Assembly: GCF_024227715.1 (NCBI RefSeq)
Contig: NZ_CP100448.1
Coordinates: 2,439,655 to 2,503,654 of the forward strand
Length of the DNA stretch: 64,000 bases
Reading direction: 5' to 3'
Source of the DNA: Halomarina litorea
GTDB taxonomy: Archaea; Halobacteriota; Halobacteria; Halobacteriales; Haloarculaceae
Each line of letters opens with the position of its first letter. Within the stretch, counting starts at the first letter, position 1. A program made the translations under genes and the position numbers. The notes beneath the pieces were generated by a model. The model ran no database searches, had not been told where the DNA came from, and saw only the letters and a list, made by a program, of their open reading frames with translations. Below, piece after piece: positions 56,686 through 62,405 of this stretch.

Positions 56686-57744
56686 TCACCGGGTGTTCGC
56701 GCTCGCGCGCTCGTCCAGTCGGATGCCCGTCTTCTTCAGGATGCGCGTCGAGAACAGCGTGTCCCAGTCCTCGTCACCCACGTCCCAGAACTCGCTCATG
56801 CGCTCGCGGACCTGCTCGACGCGTTCGCGGGACTCGGCCTCGGTGCGCCCGTGGGTCATCGCGAAGAAGTTGTACGGCCACACCCCCTCGTGGCGCGGGC
56901 GCTGGTAGCAGTGGGTGACGAAGTCGAGCGAGGCTATCGCGGGGCCGACCTCCTCGACGAGTTCGTCGGGGACGTTCCAGACCGTCATCCCGTTCTCCGT
57001 GTACCCGAGCGCGTAGTGGTTCGGGATGACGCCCACCCGGCGTATCTTCCCCTCGCGGTCGAAGCGCTTGAGCGTGCGGACGACCCACTCGACGTCCTGC
57101 CCGATTGCGGCCGCCACGTCCGCGTAGGGCGTCGCCGTCACCGGGAGGCCGCCTTGAATCTCCAGAACCAGGTCGCGTTCGGCGGGCGTGAGGGCCGTCT
57201 CGTCGGTGGGTTCGACGTCCGGCCCATGGTCCGAGAGGTCCACGTCCCCCTCCGGGACGGGGCCGTCGAGGAGGAACTTCGCCTCCACGCGGAACTCCCG
57301 GACCTTCGGGAGGTTGTACGTCGGCTGGCCCGTCTCCGCCTCGATGTCCGCGAGGACGCGTTCGACCTCCGATTCGTCGGCCACCGAGACGACGAACCAC
57401 ATGTTCAGGTGCGGGTGTTCGCGCTCGTAGTTGTGGGCCACCTCGCGGTGGGCGTTGACCTGCTCTGCGACCTCGTCGAACCGCTCCTCGGGGGCGTGCA
57501 TGGCGACGAGCGTCGCGGTCCCGCCGATCTCCTGTGCGTTGACGAGTGCGCCGAACCGCGAGAGGACGCCCTCCTCGTCCATCCTCCTGACCCGGTCGAG
57601 GAGTTCCTCACTCGTGACGTCCACCCCGCGTTCGCGCAGGGCCGCCGCCGCGGGCTCGAAGGGCCGCTCGACGACCGGGAACCCGCCCTGGAAGGCGTTG
57701 AGAATCGCCCGGTCGATGCGGTCCAGCCCCTCGGTCGTGTTCAT
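56686..57744 (-). CDS. Fused AhbA/AhbB-type sirohaem decarboxylase
   Basis: 352 residues from ATG 57744. Two tandem Lrp/AsnC-like units: residues 5 to about 165 (LDRIDRAILNAFQGGFPVVE, VLSRFGALVNAQEIGGTATL, HEHPHLNMWFVVSVADESEV-like region) and about 185-350 (TPAERDLVLEIQGGLPVTAT, IRRVGVIPNHYALGYTENGM, MTVWNVPDELVEEVGPAIAS). NHYALGY and PYNFFAMTHGR are typical of AhbA/B and NirD/G/L/H, which decarboxylate sirohaem in the alternative haem pathway. The usual heterodimer is encoded here as one chain. Confidence 0.87.
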   Translation of the reverse strand: MNTTEGLDRIDRAILNAFQGGFPVVERPFEPAAAALRERGVDVTSEELLDRVRRMDEEGVLSRFGALVNAQEIGGTATLVAMHAPEERFDEVAEQVNAHREVAHNYEREHPHLNMWFVVSVADESEVERVLADIEAETGQPTYNLPKVREFRVEAKFLLDGPVPEGDVDLSDHGPDVEPTDETALTPAERDLVLEIQGGLPVTATPYADVAAAIGQDVEWVVRTLKRFDREGKIRRVGVIPNHYALGYTENGMTVWNVPDELVEEVGPAIASLDFVTHCYQRPRHEGVWPYNFFAMTHGRTEAESRERVEQVRERMSEFWDVGDEDWDTLFSTRILKKTGIRLDERASANTR

Positions 57745-57813
57745 GGCGAGGGATCGGGGCCACCGGGGCATAAGGGCCGCGTTCGCTCGGTCGCACCCCC
57801 GCGAGGCGGTGGG

Positions 57814-58831: not shown

Positions 58832-59026
58832 TTACAGGCGCTGGAGGTTCTTGGCGCGAGGGCCCTTGTCGGCCTGTTCGATGTCGAACTCGACCTCCTG
58901 CCCCTCTTCGAGGTCCGGACCGCCGACGTCTTCCATGTGGAAGAACACGTCGTCGTCGGCCTCGTCGGTCTCGATGAATCCGTAACCGCCAGTGTCGTTG
59001 AAGAACGCCACTTTTCCTTTCGCCAT
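58832..59026 (-). CDS. cspA: Cold-shock domain protein, second copy
   Basis: 64 residues, full-length single-OB-fold cold-shock protein: GGYGFIETDEADDDVFFHME carries the RNP1 and RNP2 nucleic-acid-binding motifs. It differs from the preceding gene at six of 64 positions and follows it by two bases, without room for a promoter. Likely RNA chaperone. Confidence 0.95.
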   Translation of the reverse strand: MAKGKVAFFNDTGGYGFIETDEADDDVFFHMEDVGGPDLEEGQEVEFDIEQADKGPRAKNLQRL

Positions 59027-59028
59027 CG

Positions 59029-59223
59029 TCAGAGCCTCTTCAGGTTCTTCGCACGCGGGCCCTTGTCGGCCTGCTCGATGTCGAACTCCACTTCCTGGCC
59101 CTCCTCGAGGTCGGGGCCACCGACGTCCTCCATGTGGAAGAACACGTCGTCGTCGGACTCATCGGTCTTGATGAACCCGTAACCGCCTGTGTCGTTGAAG
59201 AAATCAACCGTACCGGTCGCCAT
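59029..59223 (-). CDS. cspA: Cold-shock domain protein, first copy
   Basis: 64 residues; GGYGFIKTDESDDDVFFHME holds RNP1 and RNP2. Differences from its tandem partner are Thr3/Lys, Thr5/Lys, Asp7/Ala, Lys19/Glu, Ser23/Ala and Lys62/Gln, so the first strand and RNP1 flank carry opposite charge. Promoter TATA at 59248-59256. Confidence 0.95.
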   Translation of the reverse strand: MATGTVDFFNDTGGYGFIKTDESDDDVFFHMEDVGGPDLEEGQEVEFDIEQADKGPRAKNLKRL

Positions 59224-59330: not shown

Positions 59331-60254
59331 ATGGTACGGCGGGTCCGTCGACTGGCACGTCGGCTCTACGAGCGGGTACTCGAACGGGAACTCGGTGGCG
59401 TCCCCGCCCACGTCGCGGTCATCCAGGACGGCAACCGGCGCTACGCGGACCGAAAGGGCGCGGGAACGGCGGTCGGCCACCGCGCGGGCGCGGAGACGAC
59501 GGAGGCGATGCTCGACTGGTGTGCGGAACTCGGCATCGAGGAACTGACGCTGTACGCCTTCTCGACGGAGAACTTCGAGCGCCCCCCCGAGGAGCGCGAG
59601 GAACTGTTCGACCTCATCGAGGACAAACTCTACCAGTTCGCCGACGACGAGAAGGTCCACGAGGACGAGGTGCGCATCCGCGCCATCGGCCAACTGGACC
59701 TGCTCCCCGCCCGGGTCCGCGAGGCCATCGAGTACGCCGAGACCCGGACCGCCGACTACGACAGCCAGTACCTGAACGTCGCGCTGGCCTACGGCGGCCG
59801 CGCGCAACTGCTCGGGGCGGCCCGCGACCTCGCGGGGGCCATCGAGGACGGCCGCCTCGCCAGCGACGACATCGACGTGGCCGCCGTCGAGGCCCGCCTC
59901 GCCGAACGACCCGCCCGCGCCGTCGACCTCATCATCCGCACCGGGGGCGACGAGCGCACCTCGAACTTCCTCCCGTGGCACGCCAACGGCAACGAGGCCG
60001 CCGTCTTCTTCTGTGCCCCCTACTGGCCAGAGTTCTCGCGCGTGGACTTCCTGCGGGCCATCCGCACCTACCAGTCCAGACAGGAGTCCTGGCGGCGCAC
60101 CCGGAGCGAACGCGCACTCGCACTCGCCAGCGCCGTCGGCGCGGACCGACCGCTCGTCCGCAGACTCACCGAGAAGGTCGGCGACCTGCCGGAACTGGAA
60201 GTCGACGTGGAGGCGGAGGGCGAGGAGGCGGAGTCGGAACTGCTGGCCGACTGA
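59331..60254 (+). CDS. uppS: cis-Prenyltransferase (polyprenyl diphosphate synthase)
   Basis: 307 residues. All five family regions are seen: VPAHVAVIQDGNRRYADRKG with the catalytic Asp, GHRAGAETTEAMLDWCAELG, LTLYAFSTENFERPPEEREE, LNVALAYGGRAQLLGAARDL and LIIRTGGDERTSNFLPWHAN. It extends farnesyl or geranylgeranyl diphosphate to the C55-60 polyprenol that carries glycans in haloarchaeal N-glycosylation. The tail is strongly acidic. Convergent with a divergent sister gene. Confidence 0.94.
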   Translation: MVRRVRRLARRLYERVLERELGGVPAHVAVIQDGNRRYADRKGAGTAVGHRAGAETTEAMLDWCAELGIEELTLYAFSTENFERPPEEREELFDLIEDKLYQFADDEKVHEDEVRIRAIGQLDLLPARVREAIEYAETRTADYDSQYLNVALAYGGRAQLLGAARDLAGAIEDGRLASDDIDVAAVEARLAERPARAVDLIIRTGGDERTSNFLPWHANGNEAAVFFCAPYWPEFSRVDFLRAIRTYQSRQESWRRTRSERALALASAVGADRPLVRRLTEKVGDLPELEVDVEAEGEEAESELLAD

Positions 60255-60327
60255 CCGCTCTCGACCGGACTTCTGTGAGGCGAGCATCTGCGAGCACCAC
60301 ACCGTTCCGTTCGACCGTCCCTTCGAC

Positions 60328-60936
60328 CTACCGCCCGAATCTGCGCTGTCGGTCCTGATAGTCCCGCACCGCCCGGAGGTAGTCCCGTTTCCTGAAGTCC
60401 CGCCAGTTCACGTCGGTGAAGTACAGTTCCGAGTAGACCGACTGCCAGATCATGAAATCGGAGAGGCGTTCGGCCCCCGTCTTGATGACGAGGTCGGGGG
60501 CCGTCGGGAAGACGAGCGCCGACTCGATGTGGCTCTCGTCGATGTCCTCGCTCCGTAACTCCCCGGACTCGACGGCCTCGGTGACCGAGCGGACCGCGTT
60601 GGCGAACTCCGCCTTCCCGCCGAGGCCGATGCTGACCTGCACGGGCGCGTCGGCGCGTTCCTCGTCGTCCGGACCGCGGACCGCCAACGGGCGGGGCGCG
60701 TCGAGGTCGGCGAGGGTCCGCCGGAGCGTCGGGACGGCCGCCTCGTCGAGCACCGAGACGTACACCATCACGCGCTCGGCGCCGCCGTCGAACGCCCACC
60801 CGAGGAACGACTCCAGTCGCCGATAGGCGTCGTGTTCGAGCAGGTCGCGTTCGGTGATGACCAGCGCGATGGTCCGCGGCGCGGCCGCCGAACTCCGCCG
60901 GATGCGCGCCGCGAGGTATCGGTCGTACAGTCCCAC
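60328..60936 (-). CDS. Divergent cis-prenyltransferase-like protein lacking the catalytic Asp
   Basis: 202 residues from GTG 60936 (VGLYDRYLAARIRRSSAAAP), chosen because it aligns with the N-terminus of the UppS next door. Region V survives in changed form (PDLVIKTGAERLSDFMIWQS, then KRDYLRAVRDYQDRQRR), but the first region, DGNRRYADRKG in UppS, reads VITERDLLEHDAYRRLESF, so the catalytic Asp and phosphate loop are missing. This is the pattern of NgBR/Nus1-type regulatory partners of cis-prenyltransferases. Confidence 0.8.
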   Translation of the reverse strand: MGLYDRYLAARIRRSSAAAPRTIALVITERDLLEHDAYRRLESFLGWAFDGGAERVMVYVSVLDEAAVPTLRRTLADLDAPRPLAVRGPDDEERADAPVQVSIGLGGKAEFANAVRSVTEAVESGELRSEDIDESHIESALVFPTAPDLVIKTGAERLSDFMIWQSVYSELYFTDVNWRDFRKRDYLRAVRDYQDRQRRFGR

Positions 60937-61033
60937 GGGCCACTCTCCTCGGCGGGGGAACGTAAGGTTCACGGGAGGGTCCCCCGAACGCGGCGAGTAC
61001 GCTGCCGAACCGGCCGTAGACGCGTCCCGAGGG

Positions 61034-61064: not shown

Positions 61065-62405
61065 GTGTCTATCACGGTCCGACGCGCGGGCGCGTTCGGC
61101 GTCGTCGCCCTCCTCGCGCTGGTCGCCCCCCCGCTCGAGGGCCGCTTCGAGCCGCGAGTCGAGGCCGCACTCGCCGCCGTCCCCTTCGCGCTGGTCGCCC
61201 TCTACGCCCTCCTCGCCGACGACGAGGGCTACCTCTTCGACGTGTTCGCCCGGCCCGGCGACTTCGAGGAGGGCCGCCTCTACGGGCTGGCGGGCTTCTC
61301 GCTCGCCGCCGCGGGCCTCGCCATCGTGGCCCTCCGGTTCGGGATGCCGGTCGCGGTGTTCGTCACCAGCGTGTTCGTCCTCGCGTACGGCGACCTCGCC
61401 CAGAAGGGGACGCTGGACGTGGTCGGCGACCGCTTTCTCGCCATCTCGGCGTTCGCCGCCGCCGGCTTCGGTGCGGGCGTCCTCGCCCAGTTCGCGAGCG
61501 CCTTGCTCTCGGGCGGCGCGTTCGACCCCCCGCAGGCGGTCTTCCTCGCCGCCAGCGGCGCGTTGCTGGCCGCGCTGTTGCGCTCGATGCTGTTCGAGCG
61601 CGACGACCCGCTGGTGATGGCCTCCGTGGCGCTCGTCCTCTGGCTGTTCACCACCCTCCCGCTGGAGCTGACGGCGACGGGGGTGCTCGCGGGCGTGGGG
61701 GTGAGCGTCGCCCTCGGCTACGTCTCCTACGCGCTGGAGACGGCGTCGGTGACGGGGATGCTCGCGGGCGTGTTGCTCGCCCTCCTCAGCGTCGTGCTCG
61801 GCGACTTCGGCTGGTTCGCCGTCCTCATTTCCTTCTTCGCGGTGGGCGGCCTCTCCACGAAGTTCCGCTACGAGGAGAAACGCGAGCGCGGCATCGCCGA
61901 GGACAACGAGGGCGCGCGCGGCAGCGGAAACGTCCTCGCCAACAGCGCGGCGGCGCTGGTCGCCCTCGTCGCCGCCGCCGCCAGCCCCATGCTCGGTCTC
62001 CCCTCGCGGCTGTTCCTCTTCGCGTTCGTCGGGAGCGTCGCCGCCGCGATGAGCGACACCCTCTCCAGCGAAATCGGCGGCCTCTACGACGACCCGCGCC
62101 TCATCACAACCCTCCAGCGGGTGCCCCCCGGAACCGACGGCGGGGTCACGTGGCAGGGGGAACTCGCCGGCATCGCGGGGGCGGCCGTCGTCGCCGTCAT
62201 CGCCGTCGTCGCCTTCTCGCTCTCGCCGCTGGGCGTCGTGGTCGTCGTCGCCGCCGGCGTCGCCGGGATGACCGTCGACAGCCTCCTCGGTGCGACCGTC
62301 GAGGGCGTCTACGTCGACAACAAGGGGGTCAACTTCGCCGCGACGACGGCCGCCGCGTTCGTCGGGGGCGCACTCGCCGTCGCGACGGGACTGGTCGTGG
62401 TCTGA
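61065..62405 (+). CDS. DUF92-family membrane protein (VTE6/polyprenol-phosphate-kinase-like)
   Basis: 446 residues from GTG 61065, 10-12 helices. The C-terminal half is DUF92: FFAVGGLSTKFRYEEKRERG, IAEDNEGARGSGNVLANSAA, SVAAAMSDTLSSEIGGLYDD and AGMTVDSLLGATVEGVYVDN, as in plant VTE6, which phosphorylates phytyl phosphate. The N-terminal half contains a DAL..TLDVVGDRFLA segment that looks like a dolichol-kinase/cytidylyltransferase relative. Position beside UppS suggests polyprenol phosphate recycling. Confidence 0.8.
   Translation: MSITVRRAGAFGVVALLALVAPPLEGRFEPRVEAALAAVPFALVALYALLADDEGYLFDVFARPGDFEEGRLYGLAGFSLAAAGLAIVALRFGMPVAVFVTSVFVLAYGDLAQKGTLDVVGDRFLAISAFAAAGFGAGVLAQFASALLSGGAFDPPQAVFLAASGALLAALLRSMLFERDDPLVMASVALVLWLFTTLPLELTATGVLAGVGVSVALGYVSYALETASVTGMLAGVLLALLSVVLGDFGWFAVLISFFAVGGLSTKFRYEEKRERGIAEDNEGARGSGNVLANSAAALVALVAAAASPMLGLPSRLFLFAFVGSVAAAMSDTLSSEIGGLYDDPRLITTLQRVPPGTDGGVTWQGELAGIAGAAVVAVIAVVAFSLSPLGVVVVVAAGVAGMTVDSLLGATVEGVYVDNKGVNFAATTAAAFVGGALAVATGLVVV

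Follow-up and report, generated by a model that had tools for sequence, protein, structure and literature searches.

A convergent gene pair found across the Halobacteriota very probably encodes the two unlike subunits of a heteromeric cis-prenyltransferase

The analyzed window, a stretch of 64,000 nucleotides from Halomarina litorea (contig NZ_CP100448.1), hosts two neighboring genes of the cis-prenyltransferase family PF01255 and, next to them, a gene for a membrane protein:

59331..60254, + strand: putative catalytic subunit, PF01255 of the UppS/DHDDS type, 307 aa, ATG start; TIGR00055 above cut-off
60328..60936, - strand: putative sister subunit, partial PF01255 (NgBR/Nus1-like role), 202 aa, GTG start
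61065..62405, + strand: integral membrane protein (DUF92/TIGR00297), encoded divergently from the sister

The catalytic and the sister gene are convergent, with 73 bp separating their stop codons. A second GTG is found upstream of the sister gene at 60972, the starts of its homologues matching 60936 instead. In profile searches, the catalytic protein was matched to PF01255 over the full length (E 2.2e-66, 224 bits) and the sister at profile positions 115-219 only (E 6.2e-27, 95 bits), both exceeding the curated cut-off of 27 bits. A search of the whole genome revealed no PF01255 protein besides these two, and redundancy of the pair through a third, intact UppS was consequently rejected. Scanning the region between the convergent genes for sigma-70 and terminator signals, using models ill-suited to archaea, gave no match. 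Two further observations concern other genes of the window. An apparent AhbA-AhbB siroheme decarboxylase fusion is encoded at 56689-57771 (-) by one 361-aa ORF (NF040708 at residues 20-166, NF040707 at 201-351), and tandem, nearly identical 64-aa cold-shock (CspA-type)-like proteins, located at 58832-59026 and 59029-59223 (-) and 2 bp apart, adjoin the catalytic gene.

An earlier note, made from the sequence alone, had described the pair as a normal UppS and a shorter sister, the latter having kept the C-terminal region and lost the catalytic DGNRR loop. The two convergent reading frames are indeed present at the positions listed above, with DGNRR in the first protein and missing from the sister, and the C-terminal peptides quoted for them were recovered. 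The term normal UppS, however, had to be abandoned. Although DGNRR and the other active-site residues that were checked are present in the catalytic protein, it is incomplete, carrying S-W-R where the C-terminal RxG motif is expected; it also has ~50 additional C-terminal residues. Labelling both proteins plain UppS would be misleading for each.

The RxG motif is of particular relevance for the reading of this pair. In homodimeric cis-prenyltransferases, the C-terminal RxG contacts Mg and the acceptor substrate (PMC8131916), and in the human DHDDS/NgBR complex, the RxG tail of NgBR reaches through the dimer interface to the active site of DHDDS, where it forms the substrate sites (PMC7573591). 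The motif is not strictly essential in all family members, as Asn replaces its Arg in yeast Nus1 (PMC7573591) and as it is dispensable in Methanosarcina MM_0014, an active homodimer crystallised without RxG (PMC8131916).

Active-site residues were compared, using E. coli numbering, in an alignment that combined three bacterial UppS chains with 87 catalytic proteins and 88 sisters from Halobacteriota. Throughout the 87 catalytic proteins, D26, G27, N28, R30, S71, N74, R77, R194, R200, and S202 are invariant and position H43 is occupied by His or Tyr, while RxG at the homologous position was detected in none of them. All 88 sisters lack DGNRR, with other residues in place of the D26-R30 loop, F70, and N74; a deletion removes the H43 position in every one of them and the R77 position in 82. 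What the sisters retain are the equivalents of Arg200, Ser202, and Glu213 as well as RxG, spanning residues four to two as counted back from the protein end, with Arg kept in 87 of 88 (one Lys) and Gly in 88 of 88; the window sister terminates in ...RRFGR. Almost without exception, each subunit is devoid of what its partner supplies. The window proteins do not show the combination of a homodimeric UppS, i.e., DGNRR and a C-terminal RxG in one chain, but that of a heteromer, with a DGNRR chain without RxG and a loop-less chain with C-terminal RxG. This reciprocity is perfect in Halobacteria (64/64), where RxG is missing from all catalytic chains up to a distance of five residues from the homologous position, and less clean outside, where three catalytic chains have a displaced R-x-G (L149 and L160 by -1, L165 by +4). 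L149 (family f22) and L160 (f27) are both from methanogens and end in RRRSG and RIRAG, respectively, with the R-x-G one residue upstream; this may reflect chance, a remnant, or a partial regain of the motif. Two divergent sisters (L189 and L190, family f19) comprise only 163-167 aa, yet have a C-terminus consisting of RRFG plus one residue.

Predicted structures of both proteins match UppS/DHDDS/NgBR structures in Foldseek searches. Human DHDDS (7pax_A) ranked first for the catalytic model, and the sister model shows a cis-prenyltransferase fold with NgBR (7pb1_B) among its matches. The mean pLDDT of the AlphaFold models is 82.8 for the sister, including a low-confidence segment at 161-170, and 76 for the catalytic protein. 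In the latter, the final helix 237-269 is continued and a short helix 274-284 is added, both at low confidence; these predicted helices recall the C-terminal tetramerisation region of DHDDS, with no claim of a tetramer being made here. The C-terminal extension is absent from several methanogen orthologues.

Extension of the analysis toward genome level showed that all 145 Halobacteria genomes, which cover 59 genera, contain the sister and that 144 of them also have a full-length catalytic copy. The single exception, a 120-contig assembly (G072), contains the sister and lacks the catalytic copy, possibly due to an assembly gap. Within the whole phylum Halobacteriota, sister-profile matches were found in 195 of 197 genomes. 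The two remaining ones, MAGs of one genus (G151 and G159), carry neither subunit and retain DUF92, reflecting either joint loss of the pair or incomplete assembly. They also account for the only family without the pair outside Halobacteria, the other 20 of 21 sampled families having a DGNRR chain together with a truncated chain ending in RxG. A contig scan based on the sister alignment gave named matches confined to Halobacteriota, its pattern IWQ missing Methanosarcina (VWQ). The open frame of the sister is free of stops in all 145 Halobacteria, nearly all full-length matches being 61-77% identical to the copy in the window, and the mean tree distance of the sister within this class is lower than that of the catalytic protein (0.68 vs 0.96). 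Distances of the two proteins correlate with r 0.90 over 82 genomes and with r 0.78 within Halobacteria (Mantel p 0.001), a correlation which would fit joint vertical inheritance and is by itself no proof of interaction. Four genomes encode two catalytic paralogues and a single sister, the second paralogues (L131 in G068, L132 in G061, L135 in G105, and L141 in G098) being full-length with DGNRR and without RxG. They look as if one sister partners both, resembling yeast, in which Nus1 partners Rer2 or Srt1 (PMC7839719). As a separate observation, a 462-residue open frame in G002 (L137, 611-1999, - strand) contains a third, divergent PF01255 domain, and a simple motif search gave no DGNRR in it.

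A heteromer of this kind already has a precedent in the same phylum. MM_0618 and MM_1083 of M. mazei are reported to form a heteromeric cis-prenyltransferase with C45-50 products (Emi et al. 2019, BBRC 520:291, as described in PMC8131916). We located an M. mazei genome (G310) by a 99% match to the crystal chain of MM_0014 and found exactly three PF01255 genes above cut-off, namely MM_0014, a full-length gene of the catalytic type, and a partial one covering profile positions 109-219 only. Because only the catalytic and the sister type remain besides MM_0014, the published heteromer must consist of these two, and by elimination the window pair is almost certainly orthologous to the CHARACTERISED complex MM_0618/MM_1083. 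We infer that the catalytic type corresponds to MM_0618 and the sister to MM_1083, the numbers being assigned by elimination instead of annotation and the chromosomal spacing being consistent with it. The M. mazei complex and the putative haloarchaeal one share the phylum, the full-length and truncated paralogue types, and the probable role in providing a glycosyl-carrier lipid. They differ in that the M. mazei genes are ~550 kb apart, whereas the window genes are convergent and 73 bp apart. The MM_0014/MA1831 type is likewise an archaeal PF01255 enzyme without RxG; in contrast to the window protein it is a homodimer with the C-terminus TLGG and only distantly similar (E 3e-14). It was observed exclusively as a third copy, namely in G145 and in part of the Methanosarcina genomes. 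A further heteromer was reportedly described by Sompiyachoke et al. (2022, J Biochem), namely Af1219/Af0707 of Archaeoglobus fulgidus, in which both subunits are said to be needed for activity and which likewise has two unlike subunits and shares the phylum with the window pair. One part of the earlier proposal stands, namely a division into a catalytic and a non-catalytic subunit following the logic of DHDDS/NgBR, which the reciprocal losses strongly support. The other part, an archaeal heteromer as a new parallel, is superseded; because the M. mazei heteromer was already known, the haloarchaeal pair represents an orthologue of a known complex.

The resemblance to the eukaryotic enzymes is one of organization. 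Human DHDDS/NgBR and yeast Rer2/Nus1 also combine a DGNRR subunit without RxG with a loop-less partner, NgBR ending in RxG, and they provide the carrier lipid for N-glycosylation, a role proposed alike for the archaeal pair. In contrast to NgBR and Nus1, the archaeal sister lacks a membrane anchor at its N-terminus: no hydrophobic N-terminal segment was found, the first beta strand beginning ~20 residues in. The sister is also nearer to bacterial UppS than to NUS1. A search with the sister profile gave E 2e-34 for bacterial UppS, 8e-24 for DHDDS, and 5e-11 for NUS1, and a specific kinship between sister and NgBR was rejected on the basis of these far lower NUS1 scores. Bacterial homodimeric UppS belongs to the same family PF01255, has the same fold, and agrees with the catalytic subunit in its active-site residues, but carries DGNRR and RxG in one chain, which the archaeal pair splits over two. 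A tree of the C-terminal domain placed the catalytic chains (support 0.86) apart from the sisters and bacterial UppS. The position of the bacteria beside the sisters is weakly supported (0.48) and long-branch affected, and no order of duplications was concluded from it. Within the comparison made, covering Halobacteriota, bacteria, and eukaryotes, the archaeal and eukaryotic heteromers are probably alike in working and separate in origin.

The gene neighborhood adds a third member to the locus. In 49 of the 59 haloarchaeal genera, the catalytic and the sister gene are convergent and at most 10 kb apart, in 34 of those at most 1 kb; in the other 10 genera they are unlinked, and the convergent layout does not constitute an operon. 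A divergent DUF92 gene adjoins the sister gene in 53 of 59 haloarchaeal genera, six of which have the catalytic gene elsewhere. Outside Halobacteria, all 26 genomes scored in 10 families show the sister-DUF92 arrangement, and the nine other families scored lack it; some families comprise one or two genomes. Six genomes (G147, G155, G163, G188, G196, and G208) belong to families without this arrangement and keep the convergent catalytic-sister pair. The simplest reading would be an ancestral order of the catalytic gene converging on the sister, followed by DUF92 in the direction of the catalytic gene, with breaks at differing points. We take DUF92 to be equivalent to COG1836. The plant phytyl-phosphate kinase VTE6 was recognised through its COG1836 similarity (PMC9782597). 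The DUF92 protein is a relative of VTE6, probably belonging to the same isoprenoid-phosphate pathway as the pair, and a prenyl-phosphate kinase is a reasonable guess for its function.

In view of these data, the products of the two genes very probably assemble into one heteromeric cis-prenyltransferase, as its catalytic and its non-catalytic subunit. Three other explanations have to be weighed against this assignment. In the first, the catalytic protein would be an independent homodimer and the sister a separate regulatory or lipid-binding protein, dispensable for catalysis. The activity of MM_0014 without RxG and the 10 genera with unlinked genes speak in its favor; it is nevertheless improbable, given that all 88 sisters have preserved the fold's C-terminal half along with the RxG tail, that the sister accompanies the catalytic type in every sampled family, with or without an MM_0014-type enzyme, and that the orthologous M. 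mazei proteins are described as a heteromer. Still less probable is a sister acting as an enzyme in its own right, e.g., one that cooperates with the linked DUF92 protein and uses a different prenyl phosphate. Its gene is linked more often to DUF92 (53 of 59 genera) than to its catalytic partner (49 of 59), and it retains the three C-terminal residue equivalents named above, but these belong to the dimer-forming C-terminal half, and equivalents of Asp26, Asn28, Arg30, His43, Phe70, Asn74, and Arg77 are missing. A functionless, decaying pseudogene or remnant paralogue, as might be suspected from the absent catalytic loops and a length shorter by ~100 residues, is refuted by the conservation of the intact frame in all 145 Halobacteria, an RxG invariant there, and the low tree distance of the sister.

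For the heteromeric cis-prenyltransferase, the following mechanism can be proposed. The catalytic subunit would bind an allylic primer and isopentenyl diphosphate (IPP) and elongate the chain by means of DGNRR and the His/Phe/Asn/Arg residues. The sister would dimerise with it via the retained C-terminal half of the fold, its R-F-G tail reaching across the interface and completing an IPP/Mg site which the catalytic subunit alone could not form. This would yield a polyprenyl diphosphate of ~C50-C60, to be converted into dolichyl phosphate, the sugar carrier for N-glycosylation; a precursor of dolichyl phosphate is the best reading for the product of the haloarchaeal pair. This mechanism is supported because the reciprocal loss and retention of motifs extends through the phylum, the co-occurrence is near-universal, the synteny is conserved, and the pair is, by elimination, orthologous to the M. 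mazei proteins. For Halomarina litorea itself, we infer a physical complex of the two subunits with the tail inserted into the active site, as well as the product formed and the role played in this organism's physiology. More tentatively, and with somewhat less than even confidence, the heteromer may be ancestral and obligate across Halobacteriota, having replaced a homodimer by complementary loss, with catalytic gene, sister, and DUF92 forming an ancient cluster in which DUF92 would act as prenyl- or polyprenyl-phosphate kinase of the carrier-lipid pathway.

Taken at the level of sequence, the mechanism is well supported, its novelty being limited by the orthologous complex known in Methanosarcina. 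Possibly less reported so far are the phylum-wide distribution, the conserved convergent layout, and the position of DUF92 next to the sister. These data point to a likely enzyme catalyzing the first committed step toward the haloarchaeal glycan carrier lipid, in a group including genetically tractable members. They also indicate that throughout an archaeal phylum, the usual condition is a split between two subunits for which the human disease genes DHDDS/NUS1 are the best-known example. The conserved DUF92 neighbor, in turn, offers a lead toward one step in the isoprenoid-phosphate metabolism of archaea. Most worth following are the linkage to DUF92 and the reciprocal loss seen throughout the phylum.
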